64,000 bases of DNA from Bacillus sp. ISL-37 (GTDB lineage Bacteria > Bacillota > Bacilli > Bacillales > Cytobacillaceae). Where the stretch lies: contig NZ_JAGGQL010000011.1 of assembly GCF_018613315.1 (NCBI RefSeq), positions 27,852 to 91,851 on the forward strand. Direction: 5' to 3'. Below the pieces are notes generated by a model. The model did no database searches. It saw only the letters and a program-made list of their open reading frames with translations, and had not been told where the DNA came from. This document shows, in pieces, positions 2,976 to 64,000 of the stretch (positions are counted from its first letter, which is position 1; the number at the start of each line of letters is the position of its first letter). The position numbers were made by a program, and so were the translations under genes.

Positions 2976-3023
2976 GTAGATGATTTTTTGAAAACTGGAA
3001 AAAACCGCGTGAAATTTCCAGTT

Positions 3024-3140
3024 CGCCAATAAATTTTGATAATCGCCAATAAAGTTGTGAAAATCGCCAATAAAGTTGGATTATCGCCAATAAAGTTGTG
3101 AAAACCGCGAATAAAAATAAATTATCGCCAATAAACGTAA
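3024..3140. repeat. Short tandem array, about 20.5-bp period
   Basis: The motif CGCCAATAAA begins at 3024, 3044, 3065, 3085, 3106 (as GCGAATAAA) and 3126, which are steps of 20 or 21 bp. It is the main content of the gap between the pgi terminator and the YugN-like gene. The rest (3141-3322) shows no clear feature. Single CGCCAATATA copies recur near 37092 and 42624. Confidence 0.75.
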
Positions 3141-10302: not shown

Positions 10303-10320
10303 TATGATAATATATACATA
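10303..10320. promoter_or_regulatory. PlcR-box-like palindrome upstream of the PlcR-like gene
   Basis: TATGATAATATATACATA matches the 18-bp PlcR box (TATGNAANNNNTTNCATA) at 10 of 12 defined positions. It lies 25 bp before the regulator start and just after a TTTACA hexamer at 10292. Autoregulation is the natural inference. The AT-rich context makes chance similarity possible. Confidence 0.5.
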
Positions 10321-10344
10321 ATTACGTTTAAATGGGGTGTAGGG

Positions 10345-11229
10345 ATGAGCCTGGTTGGATATAACTTCGGGGAAATTCTTCAGTCTTCAAGAAATTTTAA
10401 AGGATTGAATCCGGCAGAGTTGGCCGAAGGAATTTGTTCAGAAGCGGAAATAATTCAATTTGAGAAAGAAGAGAAATATCCAACGATCGACCAATTATAT
10501 AAAATGGCATTGAAGTTGGATGTTGAGCTTAATCACTTCTTTGACTTTGCATCTACTGATACCTATAATTATGCAATCGCCGTTACGGAATTAATTAAGA
10601 AATATAAGCGTGAACGGGATTATGCTGCGATCAATGAAATCATTCAAAAAGAGCAGGGTAATCCTCTGTTCAAGCATACTTCCTTCAGCCAATTTTTGCT
10701 GTGGCATGAGGGGATCAGTACATACTATCTTGAGGAAGATAAGGAGAAGTCCGTTGGTTTGCTATTTAAAGCTTTGTCTATGACCAATAAGGCGGATACT
10801 TTGACAGAACGTGAGATCGAGATTCTGACCAGTATCGCCATTGTTGAGAAAGATAGTGGAAACCTGGACAAGGCTGTTGAAGTTTTCCTTAGTGCCTTGA
10901 ATAATCTTGCAAGTCTCCCTCAGGTACAAGACTCAAGCATCTGGCTAAGGATTTTATATGGACTGGCCCAGGCATTATCGAAGCTGGAGAAATATGAAGA
11001 ATCACTTATATATTGCAGTAAAGGGATCGATAACTGTATATATGAAGAAAATATGTATTTATTTGGTGAACTTCATTACCAAACAGGCATGAATTTTATA
11101 AAATTGGGTAAATTAGAAAAAGGTAAAGGCTATCTGGAAAAAGCAATCACTATTTTTGGCCTACAGAAAAATGAGAAGTTTGCTAGTTTAGTAGAGACTG
11201 AAATGGAAAAATTATTGAAGTATTGTTAA
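10345..11229 (+). CDS. PlcR-like quorum-sensing regulator (HTH-TPR, RRNPP family)
   Basis: The 294-residue protein has an N-terminal XRE-type helix-turn-helix (about residues 8-66: an AELAEGICSEAEI recognition region followed by YPTIDQLYKMALKL). A helical tetratricopeptide-like domain follows (about 75-290). This is the layout of PlcR, NprR and Rgg-type receptors that bind an imported peptide. Length is close to PlcR (about 285 residues). The start at 10345 follows a weak GGGGTGTAGGG site. The longer frame from 10240 runs through the promoter region. A peptide precursor gene follows 42 bp downstream on the same strand, as papR follows plcR. No terminator separates it from the ger operon. Confidence 0.88.
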   Translation: MSLVGYNFGEILQSSRNFKGLNPAELAEGICSEAEIIQFEKEEKYPTIDQLYKMALKLDVELNHFFDFASTDTYNYAIAVTELIKKYKRERDYAAINEIIQKEQGNPLFKHTSFSQFLLWHEGISTYYLEEDKEKSVGLLFKALSMTNKADTLTEREIEILTSIAIVEKDSGNLDKAVEVFLSALNNLASLPQVQDSSIWLRILYGLAQALSKLEKYEESLIYCSKGIDNCIYEENMYLFGELHYQTGMNFIKLGKLEKGKGYLEKAITIFGLQKNEKFASLVETEMEKLLKYC

Positions 11230-11271
11230 TCCCATAATACTGAACAACCAGTGTAAGAGGAGGATTATAAA

Positions 11272-11859
11272 ATGAAAAAAGCTCTGTTATTGACTGCGAT
11301 TGCGACTGTACTTTTTGCTGCCATTGGGTTGGGCGCAACATCCTACAATGTTGCAGACCTTCCATCACAGCATTCACTGAAGGATTCGACAGTAGCGGAC
11401 CTGCCGTCCAAGCATTCACAGGAAGGCCAGACAGTAGCGGACTTGCCGTCCCAGCACTCGCAGGAAGGCCAGACAGTAGCAGACCTGCCGTCCCAGCATT
11501 CCCAGGAAGAGATAATAACAGTAGCGGACCTGCCGTCCCAGCATTCACAGGAAGGCCAGACAGTAGCGGACCTGCCGTCCCAGCATTCGCAGGAAGGCCA
11601 GACAGTAGCGGACCTGCCGTCCCAGCACTCGCAGGAAGGGCTAACAGTAGCAGACCTGCCGTCCCAGCACTCGCAAGAAGGCCAGACAGTAGCGGACTTG
11701 CCGTCGCAGCACTCGCAGGAAGGCCAGACAGTAGCGGACTTGCCGTCGCAGCACTCGCAGGAAGGCCAGACAGTAGCGGACTTGCCGTCGCAGCATTCAC
11801 AGGGTGATACAGCAGAGGATCTTCCTTCTCAACATAGTTATAGTAATACAATGTCGTAA
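11272..11859 (+). CDS. Multi-copy PapR-like pheromone precursor (12 tandem repeats)
   Basis: The 195-residue protein starts with a Sec signal peptide (about residues 1-24; basic MKK, then a hydrophobic core). From residue 27 it is almost wholly tandem repeat: 12 copies of VADLPSQHS, most followed by the linker QEGQT. Copy 2 has K for Q and the last copy begins AEDLPS. Unit length is 14 residues, with one unit of 15, one of 13 and a divergent C-terminal tail. The ADLPxxx core resembles the B. cereus PapR heptapeptides ADLPFEF and SDLPFEH. AGAGGAGG precedes the ATG, and the PlcR-like gene is directly upstream. I infer export, proteolytic release of many identical short peptides, re-import and binding to the regulator. 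The exact mature peptide is unknown. Confidence 0.85.
   Translation: MKKALLLTAIATVLFAAIGLGATSYNVADLPSQHSLKDSTVADLPSKHSQEGQTVADLPSQHSQEGQTVADLPSQHSQEEIITVADLPSQHSQEGQTVADLPSQHSQEGQTVADLPSQHSQEGLTVADLPSQHSQEGQTVADLPSQHSQEGQTVADLPSQHSQEGQTVADLPSQHSQGDTAEDLPSQHSYSNTMS
11350..11838 (+). repeat. 42-bp coding tandem repeat of the pheromone precursor
   Basis: Twelve units encode the repeated peptide. Neighbouring units are nearly identical in DNA as well as protein (units 5-10 differ at a few third positions), which indicates recent expansion or gene conversion. The first and last units are the most diverged. One unit has a 3-bp insertion and the eleventh a 3-bp deletion, so the frame is always kept. 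Confidence 0.97.
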
Positions 11860-11868
11860 ATTTTTACG

Positions 11869-11901
11869 CACAGCCTGAACCTGTTGGTCAGGTTGTTTTT
11901 T
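11869..11901 (+). terminator. Rho-independent terminator of the pheromone gene
   Basis: ACAGCCTGA pairs with TCAGGTTGT (one G-U pair) and runs into a T-tract, closing the regulator-pheromone unit. Confidence 0.85.
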
Positions 11902-11962
11902 ATGTTTTAAAACAATTTTGTTATACTCTTTAAAACTTTAACGTATATTTTTTCGGATTAGG

Positions 11963-11990
11963 AAAAGGCTCTGGGAACTTCCAGAACCTA
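11963..11990 (-). terminator. Rho-independent terminator, minus strand
   Basis: On the minus strand GGTTCTGG and CCAGAGCC pair and are followed by TTTTCC, downstream of the small secreted protein gene. Confidence 0.75.
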
Positions 11991-12035
11991 TAATATTTAT
12001 TATTAAATTGCTGATGGCCACATCGGCTACAAATT

Positions 12036-12293
12036 TTAGTCGACGATATCCATATGACTAGGGTCCATCATATTGAAGTTCTTGCTCGGCATGGCACCGT
12101 TTGTACCGTGGCAGTCATTGTACATTTGCTTGACTTCTTCATCGGACAAGCCTGGGTGCATCTTTTCGATTAACGGCTTCATTTGACCAAAATTAAAAGT
12201 ACCTTTACCTTCTGTCCCTTCTTCTGCAAAGGCAGCAGTGCTTGCTCCAATTATCAATGCTGCGCCAAAAAAACTTAACGTTAGTTTTTTCAT
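12036..12293 (-). CDS. Small secreted protein of unknown function
   Basis: This 85-residue protein has a Sec signal peptide ending near AFA|EEG (residue 23). The mature 62 residues contain GTFNFGQMKPLIEKMHPGLS and a single NDCHGTNG segment. Related short Bacillus proteins share the FNFGQM and CHG patterns, but I know of no function. The single Cys-His pair is too little for a c-type haem (CxxCH absent). The ATG at 12293 lies 11 nt behind AAAGGAG. Confidence 0.72.
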   Translation of the reverse strand: MKKLTLSFFGAALIIGASTAAFAEEGTEGKGTFNFGQMKPLIEKMHPGLSDEEVKQMYNDCHGTNGAMPSKNFNMMDPSHMDIVD

Positions 12294-12398
12294 GTCCTGG
12301 TCAGCTCCTTTCAGGTATACATAAATCTTACCGGGACAATTTGCAAAAACTAAGCAGAAGCAGTGACAAAGTTTTGAAATTTCACTGGAGGCTGGCAT

Positions 12399-12962
12399 AT
12401 GTCATTATTAGAAACTTTATCTGGCCAGCCGGTTTGGCTTGCCATTATCATTAGCCTTGCAGTCAGTATAGTGATCGCGATAGCAGGTATTGTTCCGAGT
12501 GCTTTTGTGACAGCTGCGAACATTGTTTATTTCGGATTTGTCTGGGGACTTCTTCTCTCCATTCTCGGCGAAGCATTAGGGGCAGTCATAAGTTTTATTT
12601 TGTATCGGAAAGGGCTTAAAAAGCTGAGTAGCAATATCGATTCATCAAAGTCGATTAACATATTGCAAAGGCTTAAGCAAACACATGGCATAGAGGCGTT
12701 CGTGCTTGTCATTTTACTAAGGCTTTTTCCGTTCGCACCATCCGGACTCGTCACCCTGTCCGCATCATACAGTAGGATGGGGACATGGGCCTTTGCGATT
12801 TCAAGTACTATTGGCAAAATACCGGCTCTTTTTATTGAGGCGTATTCAGTTCATACAGTACTTGGCTGGGAAACCGAATACCAGCTTGCTGCAGCAATTT
12901 TTGCGGTGGTAGCTGGGATTTGCTACTATTATTGGGCAGCAAAGAGAAAACGGAGGAAGTAG
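12399..12962 (+). CDS. TVP38/TMEM64 family membrane protein
   Basis: The 187-residue protein with about five hydrophobic segments matches the TVP38/TMEM64 (VTT domain) family, relatives of DedA proteins. The RLFPFAPSGLVTLSASYSRM region corresponds to the conserved central motif. A CTGGAGG site precedes the ATG. The lipoprotein gene starts 3 bp after its stop, so the two probably form an operon. Function is unknown. Confidence 0.85.
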   Translation: MSLLETLSGQPVWLAIIISLAVSIVIAIAGIVPSAFVTAANIVYFGFVWGLLLSILGEALGAVISFILYRKGLKKLSSNIDSSKSINILQRLKQTHGIEAFVLVILLRLFPFAPSGLVTLSASYSRMGTWAFAISSTIGKIPALFIEAYSVHTVLGWETEYQLAAAIFAVVAGICYYYWAAKRKRRK

Positions 12963-17945: not shown

Positions 17946-17969
17946 TAATATTTGTTTCCAGGATGTTTT

Positions 17970-18281
17970 AATAGACATTTCGGGGTCGAAGCAAAGTCAA
18001 AATGTCTAATAAAGAAGGATTAATGGACATTTCGAAGACGAAGCAAAGTCAAAATGTCTAATAAAGTTGGTTTAATGGACATTTCGAAGGCGAAGCAAAG
18101 TCAAAATGTCCAAGAAAGAGGGTTTAATGGACATTTCGGGATCGAAGCAAAGTCAAAATGTCTAATAAAGAAGGGTTAATGGACATTTCGAAGGCGAGGC
18201 AAAGTCAAAATGTCCAAGAAAGAGGGGTTAATGGACATTTTAAAAGAGAAGCAGCGCAAAAATGTCCATTAAGACACAAAA
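17970..18281. repeat. Tandem hairpin array, 52-bp period, six copies
   Basis: Units begin at 17970, 18022, 18074, 18126, 18178 and 18230, exactly 52 bp apart. Each holds arms GGACATTT and AAATGTCC (or TCT) about 20 bp apart, so each can form a hairpin. The array fills the gap between the convergent YunD-like and TlpA genes. It has no coding potential. Confidence 0.93.
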
Positions 18282-33210: not shown

Positions 33211-33258
33211 GAGATAAAAGGTGGGAAGTCTATAGCCGTCAAGAAAACATCGTTATTG

Positions 33259-33945
33259 TGACAGGTTTCAGGTGCAGAGCCTCAAAGCTGTCAAGAATCC
33301 GTTGTTATTGTGACAGGTTTCAAGCGCTTAGCCCCAAAGCTGTCAAGAAAGCGACGTTATTGTGACAGGTTTCAAGTGGAGAGCCGCAAAGCTGTCAAGA
33401 AAACATTGTTATTATGACAGCTTTGAAGCGCTTAGCCCCAAAGCTGTCAAGAATCCGACGTTATTATGACAGGTTTCAAGCGCTTAGCCCCAAAGCTGTC
33501 AAGAAAGCGACGTTATTAAGACAGGTTTCAGGTGCAGAGTTCCAAAGCTGTCAAGAAAGCGAGGTTATTTTGACAGGTTTCAAGTGCTGAGACTCAAAGC
33601 TGTCAAGAATCCGGCGTTATTGTGACAGGTTTCAAGTGCAGAGCTCCAAAGCTGTCAAGAAAGCGACGTTATTAAGACAGGTTTCAAGTGGAGAGCCCCA
33701 AAGCTGTCAAGAAAGCGACGTTATTTTGACAGGTTTCAAGTGGAGAGCCGCAAAGTTGTCAAGAAAACATCGTTATTATGACAGCTTTGAAGCGCTTAGC
33801 CCCAAAGCTGTCAAGAAAGCGACGTTATTATGACAGGTTTCAAGTGGAGAGCCGCAAAGCTGTCAAGAAAACATCGTTATTATGACAGCTTTGAAGCGCT
33901 TAGCCCCAAAGCTGTCAAGAATCCGACGTTATTATGACAGGTTTG
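33259..33945. repeat. Tandem hairpin array, 14 copies at exact 52-bp register
   Basis: TGACAG-type units begin at 33259 and every 52 bp to 33935, without an indel over 676 bp. Each unit has arms TGACAGSTTTS and CAAAGCTGTC with an inner variable part (for example AAGCGCTTAGCCC), then AAGAA and CGACGTTATT-like spacer. Some copies have perfect 11-bp arms. A partial copy precedes at 33236. Copies differ by scattered substitutions. Most of the gap between the exporter and M6 protease genes is this array. The rest, 33946-34224, holds a PlcR-box-like site only. Confidence 0.95.
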
Positions 33946-42477: not shown

Positions 42478-42516
42478 ATACGAATAGTTATTCAGATTGC
42501 TGCAGAATTGCGATTT

Positions 42517-42632
42517 GGTCGAAATATTCGTGAATGTGGTCGGATTTATTGAAAAAGTGGTCGAAATAATTGTGAATGTGGTCGAAATAATTCAAAAAGT
42601 GGTCGAAAAAATTTCAAATTCGCCAATATATT
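42517..42632. repeat. Short tandem array, 21-bp period
   Basis: GGTCG begins at 42517, 42538, 42559, 42580 and 42601, exactly 21 bp apart, within units like GTGGTCGAAATAATTGTGAAT. It ends beside a lone CGCCAATATA motif (42623), the core of the array at 3024. The rest of the gap to 42814 shows no further feature. Confidence 0.8.
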
Positions 42633-46818: not shown

Positions 46819-46930
46819 TATAGCTTTCTCCCCTATAAATTGGTTAAAATATTGAAGAGACTCTTTTTAGGAAGGCTCTTTTGTTCTTTTATAGTAGAAT
46901 CTGCACTAACTAGGCGGAAAGGTAACAACT

Positions 46931-47135
46931 ATAAGCCCAAATGAGGCCTCCAACCCAAAAAAGGTCACATAGAAAAATTCTATAAGCCCAAACGAGGCTA
47001 CCGAGCCAGAAAAGGTCCTATAGAAAAATTCTATAAGCCCAAATGAGGCCACCAAGCTAAAAAAGGTCCTATAGAACAAATCTATAAGCCCAAATGAGGC
47101 CGCCGAGCCAGAAAAGGTCACATAGAAAAATATTC
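46931..47135. repeat. Tandem hairpin array, 51-bp period, four copies
   Basis: ATAAGCCC begins at 46931, 46982, 47033 and 47084, exactly 51 bp apart. Each junction can form a hairpin from TATAGAA and TTCTATA. Between are AATGAGGCC and AAAAGGTC segments. It fills most of the gap between metQ and the DUF445 gene. The remainder shows nothing clear. Confidence 0.92.
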
Positions 47136-54529: not shown

Positions 54530-54575
54530 ACATTTACTAAGTGTGAGCTTTGGATTGCAAGGATTAATAGAATCG

Positions 54576-54780
54576 TATTAGCGCCCTGTTTTGTGAGAAT
54601 ATGAGAAAAGAGGTCACCAATGAGGGGTATTGGCGCCCGGTCTTGTGAGAATATGAGAAAAGAGGTCACCAATGAGGCGTATTGGCGCCCGGTTTTGTGA
54701 GAATATGAGAAAAGAGGTCACCAATAGAGACTATTGGCGCCCGAAAATTTGAGATTTGAGAAAAACAGGTCACCAATAAA
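54576..54780. repeat. Tandem hairpin array, 52-bp period
   Basis: AGGTCACC begins at 54611, 54663, 54715 and, as AGGTCACC, at 54767, exactly 52 bp apart, after a partial copy at 54576. Each unit has CCAAT and ATTGG arms with a GAGGSGT loop. Beyond the array (54781-55032) I see only degenerate remnants with GTTCCAATGA and the promoter region of the next gene. Confidence 0.92.
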
Positions 54781-63807: not shown

Positions 63808-64000
63808 TGACAGGTTTTAAGGTGTAGAAACGCTAAGTTGTCAAGAAAACGCATTTATTATGACAGGTTTCAGGCTGGAGAGCGTAAAGCTGTCAAGAAA
63901 ACGCATTTATTATGACAGGTTTCAGGCTGTAGAGCGCAAAGCTGTCAAGAAAACGCATTTATTATGACAGGTTTCAGGCTGGAGAGCGCAAAGCTGTCAA
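63808..64000. repeat. Tandem hairpin array, 52-bp period, runs off the window
   Basis: TGACAGG begins at 63808, 63861, 63913 and 63965, steps of 53, 52 and 52 bp. The unit is the same family as the 33.3-kb array (TGACAGGTTTCA ... AAAGCTGTCAAGAAAACG). The array continues past the window end. Between 63686 and 63807 I see no gene. Confidence 0.93.

Follow-up and report, generated by a model that had tools for sequence, protein, structure and literature searches.

The closest described counterparts of the locus reported here are found in the Bacillus cereus group. In plcR-papR, papR lies 70 bp downstream of plcR and the PapR precursor ends in the heptapeptide ADLPFEF; according to the accessible part of the same source, PapR probably leaves the cell through Sec, is processed by NprB and presumably by further proteases, re-enters through Opp and is bound by PlcR (PMC4147580). 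PlcRa of B. cereus is a PlcR paralogue with its own heptapeptide, PapRa7 (CSIPYEY), internal to its precursor (PMC3519770). Tandem copies within one propeptide are also known. Multi-copy RRNPPA propeptides are described for AimR, NprR, PlcR and Rap, with repeats in 3 of the 15 PlcR propeptides that are unusually large, and the copies are read as raising the ratio of pheromone to receptor (PMC9765709, accessible sections). The duplicated pheromones Phr105 and Phr3T of B. subtilis phages are active and owe their maturation to extracellular proteases, and up to eight copies of the same pheromone are mentioned in the available text of that work (PMC11343458).

The window, which is the whole analysed stretch of 64,000 nucleotides from Bacillus sp. 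ISL-37, contains a locus with the following features:

10303..10320, plus strand: TATG-N10-CATA palindrome, overlapping a GATAAT -10-like hexamer (10306-10311) of the likely promoter
10345..11229, plus strand: gene for a PlcR-like HTH-TPR (RRNPP) regulator of 294 aa, the predicted pheromone receptor
11257..11263, plus strand: GAGGAGG, resembling a ribosome-binding site in sequence, for the precursor gene
11272..11859, plus strand: putative multi-copy pheromone precursor gene, 195 aa
11272..11349, plus strand: N-terminal part of the precursor, signal-peptide-like, with a positively charged start and a hydrophobic stretch
11350..11835, plus strand: array of 12 units of the VADLPSQHS type with cores DLPS(Q/K)H, recurring mostly every 14 codons (42 bp)
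11878..11904, plus strand: terminator-like stem-loop with T run, 3' of the precursor gene

An earlier note on this DNA had described an HTH-TPR regulator followed 42 bp later by a secreted-type repeat protein, and the two ORFs at 10345-11229 (ATG at 10345, stop at 11227-11229) and 11272-11859 bear this out. The stem-loop is the only one of its kind in the region, which is not above the number in shuffled sequences (mean 1.8). The arrangement of an HTH-TPR regulator and a small secreted precursor gene behind it is shared with PlcR-PapR. The difference is that the 48-aa PapR carries one peptide, ending in PFEF, whereas the window precursor carries many cores with PSQH, and that the window locus has no conserved PlcR box. 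Compared to PlcRa-PapRa7, which likewise has an internal heptapeptide, the gene order differs, since papRa lies upstream of plcRa and a single heptapeptide is described in the accessible part of that report (PMC3519770).

The repetitive part of the precursor was detected by Tandem Repeats Finder at 11388-11803 as 9.8 copies of 42 bp (score 623), far beyond chance. Twelve cores, a count that rests on the draft assembly of a Mesobacillus-like genome (62 contigs, 4.74 Mb), can be read from the protein. Ten are exactly VADLPSQHS, one is VADLPSKHS and the final one is AEDLPSQHS, so that DLPSQH is exact in 11 of the 12, and the linkers are QEGQT in seven of eleven cases and otherwise LKDST, QEEIIT, QEGLT or QGDTA. 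The count of twelve in the earlier note therefore holds, the deviating units and linkers being a detail to add to its description. No match above the curated cut-off was found for the precursor in Pfam or NCBIfam, and in a search of 5.8 billion proteins with the precursor as query, none of the 7993 candidates scored reached E <= 0.001, perhaps because of its low complexity. Weak matches in Pfam, NCBIfam and PHROGs were discarded as repeat artefacts.

Multi-copy RRNPPA propeptides are defined by carrying the mature peptide at least twice in a propeptide encoded next to its receptor (PMC9765709, accessible sections), and the predicted copies of the window precursor exceed this number. The earlier note could name no described equivalent of an RRNPP signal in so many tandem copies; tandem RRNPPA propeptides with up to six or eight copies are known. 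What differs from the described cases, as far as the accessible sections of PMC9765709 go, is the number of twelve copies here, and 16 in a Cytobacillus, and that multi-copy precursors are the rule in a whole clade. Phr105 and Phr3T, in turn, belong to Rap-type receptors and have two copies, with a 4-aa spacer in Phr105 (PMC11343458, available text). A literature search, which mostly covered open papers without their supplements, yielded no recognised account of this lineage, of Mesobacillus PlcR-type systems, or of at least twelve copies. Since tandem propeptides are known and the lineage is not recognisably described in the literature covered, the locus appears, judged from its sequence, to be an extreme form of a known design that has become fixed throughout a clade.

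The regulator matches RNPP_C (1e-20) and TPR families in Pfam, as well as HTH_3 at 0.001, which is below the cut-off of that family. With HTH and TPR domains, it lies within the 250-500 aa expected of RRNPP(A) receptors, and the adjacent small secreted propeptide expected of such systems is found 42 bp downstream with a signal-like start. At 195 aa, the precursor exceeds the propeptide range of 10-100 aa used by RRNPP_detector (PMC10075063, accessible part). Using the family profile, PlcR in the PDB was matched at 7.4e-38. The AlphaFold2 model of the regulator (mean pLDDT 88) has the PlcR-PapR7-DNA complex 3u3w as its best PDB match, and the fold matches include PlcR, Rap, NprR, Rgg and PrgX. 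PlcR is thus the nearest relative of solved structure by both sequence and structure, as expected of the PlcR subfamily, at about 24-25% receptor identity. The assignment to a PlcR-PapR-type pair in the earlier note is in line with this, and the regulator is PlcR-like by sequence and modelled fold. In a model of PlcRa, an Asn-x-x-Lys pair in TPR3 holds the main chain of the peptide (PMC3519770, accessible part). By alignment-based equivalence, this anchor is absent here, with G at residue 206 in 75 of 80 rows and Q at residue 209 in 72, and therefore the mode of peptide binding may differ.

Among 21 genomes of the genus, 20 have an orthologue of the regulator with 75-100% identity, and regulators 81-98% identical to that of the window are found in M. 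selenatarsenatis, M. subterraneus and M. boroniphilus, among others. In the family, 65 orthologue loci were identified in 61 of 193 genomes (E <= 2.6e-70). The search for PlcR-like genes followed by repeat proteins that the earlier note had proposed gave the following outcome: a same-strand precursor with a core of the form xxPxxH lies 13-63 bp downstream in all 65 loci, and 64 of them have at least two cores, the exception being the least similar locus, L115, with one. From an order-wide sample of 397 genomes, 19 further loci (L142-L160), a selection of the matches, were read; they are multi-copy in families f30 and f42 and single-copy in f45. A precursor was recognised in 84 of 84 loci, and a signal-like start consisting of charge and a hydrophobic stretch is present in all 83 precursors tested. 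Multi-copy loci also occur in Robertmurraya and Neobacillus, and a two-copy version with GYPTQH, annotated as hypothetical, lies on a plasmid of Cytobacillus oceanisediminis. Four genomes (G060, G070, G072, G079) carry two pairs with different cores (L097 and L114, L098 and L112, L087 and L105, L100 and L048).

The copy number could be determined for the 81 closed precursors, a tally that includes near-identical loci. One copy was counted in 12 loci, two in 9, three in 11, four in 15, five in 6, six in 11, seven in 5, eight in 1, nine in 3 and ten in 5, while 11, 12 and 16 copies occur once each. The precursors of L002, L004 and L041 run off their contigs, that of L015 is closed by a masked run only, which makes its count of two a minimum, and the single copy of L151 is that of a 92-aa reading with an unsure start. 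Cores were counted with a required proline at position 3 and at most two mismatches, and the invariance of this proline is thus by construction. The regulators of L044, which has a three-copy precursor, L149, L156 and L120 end ordinarily at residues 284-298 and were included in the counts, the tree and the covariation analysis. The 16 copies belong to Cytobacillus purgationiresistens (L098), and within one genus the number ranges from 2 to 12. Since ten copies were also found in single-contig genomes (L012, L099), high counts are not merely artefacts of draft assemblies. In the near relative M. selenatarsenatis (L031), the array breaks the contig.

Outside the orthologues, no repeated core was found within 800 bp downstream of 25 more distant paralogue loci (L116-L140), and none of nine class-level loci (L171-L179) has a multi-copy precursor; L177 and L178 each have a single candidate ending in TLPFQH. 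Phages gave two weak matches. In L117 and L127 (genomes G030 and G029), whose regulators are 38% identical to that of the window, a signal-like two-copy ELPTVY candidate with a ELPTVYHELPTVY end is placed upstream and divergently, on the other strand; peptide duplication has thus also occurred outside the multi-copy clade, apparently independently. The Mesobacillus genome G011 (L030, L028) has a 44-aa precursor candidate of the classical PapR type, ending in PTVDLPFEH, beside a PlcR-like gene in two pieces; by eye, a transposase-like ORF adjoins one of the pieces.

In the maximum-likelihood receptor tree, all 71 multi-copy receptors form one clade with a support of 100/100, and no single-copy receptor falls inside it. 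The identical receptors of L086, L153, L154 and L155 were entered once. A first tree with 68 multi-copy receptors had given the same support, with L115 and the single-copy group of f45 just outside and the paralogues further out. Because the single-copy relatives lie outside the clade, the multi-copy state most simply arose once at its base. The single-copy homologues are mostly 39-47 aa long and end exactly at the core histidine (GLPSQH, GLPNQH, ILPEQH). From these sequences, the ancestral state would most simply be a precursor of about 40 aa with the core at its C-terminus.

The core histidine is the exact C-terminus in 45 of the 81 closed precursors, which suggests that histidine is the natural C-terminus and that the peptide is likely the heptapeptide ADLPSQH. 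Aligned with PapR7 (ADLPFEF), ADLPSQH is the likely ligand predicted from sequence. Compared to the C-terminal x-D-L-P-F-E-F/H of PapR, it keeps the proline at position 4 and has serine for phenylalanine at position 5 and glutamine for glutamate at position 6, and its copies are internal; a histidine at position 7 also occurs in PapR of the SDLPFEH type. The residue after internal cores is serine or glycine in 300 of 344 cases, and the residue before the core is alanine in 250 of 386. Among the closed Mesobacillus precursors, none of 18 ends at histidine; a tail follows the final copy as well, which makes every copy internal, and each would need a C-terminal cut.

Within the Mesobacillus arrays (94 units), the core is under strong purifying selection, with a pN/pS of 0.035 compared to 0.447 in the linkers; in the nine units of the window array, the values are 0.045 and 0.208. 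As synonymous change is plentiful in the core, it is the peptide and not the DNA that is kept by selection. Across loci, 374 of 389 core copies equal the majority core of their own precursor. The linkers are more alike within precursors than between them (0.71 versus 0.51 in Mesobacillus and 0.88 versus 0.43 elsewhere), which indicates that arrays are homogenised during turnover. In total, 30 core types were found, 24 of them in multi-copy precursors, including DLPSQH, DLPTQH, GIPSEH, GLPTQH, DYPVQH, WYPSQH and EMPTQH.

Core and receptor distances are correlated in a Mantel test (r 0.48, 48 receptors under 85% identity, 0 of 2000 shuffles; 0.51 over 46 receptors in an earlier run). This shows co-inheritance, which common descent alone could also produce. 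At the level of single residues, all 15 rows with glutamate at core position 5 have W91 and N or S at 242, compared to R91 in 64 of the 65 others, and L113 (GIPSQH with W91 and S242) breaks this rule. The covariation at 91 and 242 is one evolutionary event. Receptor residue 91 aligns with Lys89 of PlcR, and for Lys87 and Lys89 a contact with the PapR glutamate, which is the matching position, has been suggested (PMC6568020, accessible part). In rows with an acidic core position 1, receptor residue 213 is acidic in 0 of 40 and residue 249 in 3 of 40, versus 31 and 37 of 40 in the rest; these two residues are 36 residues apart, about one TPR. Since this trait changed three times on the tree, which puts significance out of reach, it was not used as proof.

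The palindrome in front of the regulator had been described as PlcR-box-like. It is present at 10303-10320, but its half-sites are spaced by 10 instead of the 8 of the PlcR box, and only 3 of the 20 Mesobacillus loci, and 4 of the 65 loci of the clade, have TATG-N6..12-CATA upstream. The -10-like element that it overlaps, TATGATAAT or TGTGATAAT, is kept upstream of 19 of the 20 Mesobacillus loci. Because of this rarity and the conserved element, the palindrome was rejected as a conserved PlcR-box operator and is more likely part of the promoter. Autoregulation through a PlcR box, expected of the PlcR subfamily and judged here by the generally known consensus, is thus not supported for the clade. 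No conserved operator was found upstream of the clade loci, although an operator different from the PlcR box may exist. A 31-base stretch common to the Mesobacillus promoters has the locus itself as its sole match in the window's genome (at most three mismatches), and therefore no regulon was found. Likewise, no conserved neighbouring target gene emerged from a comparison that covered six regions of 10-20 kb as well as the initial 30 kb of the window; the regulator alone is common to all six regions, and the closest pairs (L163 and the window, L164 and L166) have some flanking genes in common.

Taken as a whole, the locus is likely an RRNPP (PlcR-like) quorum-sensing pair in which each of the twelve cores is predicted to be released as ADLPSQH, the likely ligand of the adjacent regulator. 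The pair and its conservation, the selection on the core, the co-inheritance of core and receptor and the all-multi-copy clade are read from sequences, and the route of the signal can be proposed by comparison. The precursor would be exported by Sec, extracellular proteases would cut between the copies and trim them to the histidine, and an Opp-type permease would return the peptide into the cell, where it may bind in the TPR groove and alter the grip of the regulator on DNA. Parts of this machinery are to hand, as the window's genome has 8 SBP_bac_5 (Opp-type binding protein), 16 subtilase and 2 M4-peptidase matches, none of them tied to the pair. Synthetic immature pieces of the two-copy Phr105 reach maturity through extracellular proteases, and productive binding is confined to the mature form (PMC11343458, available text); by analogy with these pieces, internal copies would have to be cut at both ends. 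About a dozen signal molecules, rather than one, would then come from each transcript, and the copy number, which spans 2 to 16 in the clade, could set how early or how strongly a quorum is reached.

The wide variation in copy number within one genus, from 2 to 12, and linkers whose similarity is higher within than between precursors, as repeat turnover predicts, would also fit a reading in which the peptide is the ligand but productive maturation is limited to one or a few copies, while slippage and recombination resize the array with little effect on output. This is unlikely, since idle copies should decay unless they are quickly homogenised, whereas the copies are intact in nearly all cases and the core pN/pS stays at 0.035 while the linkers drift; in addition, the 71 multi-copy receptors form one clade without a single-copy member. 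Considerably less probable is that the repeat protein, intact or cut in part, has an extracellular role, for example by competing for the importers or receptors of other strains, with the regulator merely controlling its expression. Cross-talk is possible in the four genomes with two pairs of different cores, and a PlcR-like paralogue without a downstream repeat precursor lies near the pair in L161. Yet most single-copy homologues, with 39-47 aa and an end at the core, offer no long polymer for such a role, and the type of core follows that of the receptor. That the repeat protein has nothing to do with signalling, being for instance a His-rich metal-binding or wall protein next to the regulator by chance, could be suspected from its low complexity and the lack of significant database matches. 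This can hardly be reconciled with same-strand adjacency in 65 of 65 orthologue loci from several genera, with a regulator that is common to all six regions compared while the surroundings are not, and with a core that resembles the PapR heptapeptides. The preferred reading therefore remains the quorum-sensing pair, and the earlier note is partly supported overall, in its PlcR-like pair but not in the PlcR box or the lack of precedent.

The yeast alpha-factor is made from one secreted precursor that holds several identical pheromone copies parted by spacers. It has no homology to the system described here, other processing enzymes and a surface receptor. A bolder version of the preferred reading, for which we see slightly less than an even chance, is that a whole Bacillaceae PlcR-like lineage has fixed such an alpha-factor-like design, with 2 to 16 near-identical pheromones whose number changes fast between sister species and serves as an evolvable dial of the quorum threshold, and with about two dozen pherotypes co-diversifying with their receptors. 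If true, the amount of signal per gene would be an evolving setting. Multi-copy precursors are the rule in a clade of at least four Bacillaceae genera with single-copy relatives outside, and this natural range of 2 to 16 copies makes the maturation of internal copies and the role of copy number in setting the quorum threshold testable. The 24 multi-copy core types, for all of which the receptor sequence is available, form a natural collection in which receptor-peptide specificity can be mapped. Limits on propeptide length such as that of RRNPP_detector (10-100 aa), together with contig breaks within arrays, would hide such systems from surveys.

Several minor observations were made along the way. 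In L161, of the genus g11 (Cytobacillus), a second PlcR-like regulator at 11530-12414, with about 35% identity to that of the window, starts about 0.75 kb after the first and has no repeat precursor downstream; similar close pairs occur in other g11 genomes, and the second regulator is possibly an eavesdropping receptor. On the minus strand of the window, a small signal-peptide-like ORF without Pfam match lies at 12036-12398, and ORF traces at the matching place 3' of the pair in several Mesobacillus loci suggest that it is kept there. Tandem Repeats Finder also detected five tandem arrays with a period of 51-52 bp in the window, at 17968-18272, 33234-33944, 46929-47131, 54575-54777 and 63808-64000. 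The units of the arrays at 33234 and 63808 are alike, both having AGCTGTCAAGAAA and TGACAGGTTTCA, while the others look unrelated. Short tandem arrays with periods of about 20-21 and 41-42 bp are located at 3023-3135 and 42516-42618 of the window.
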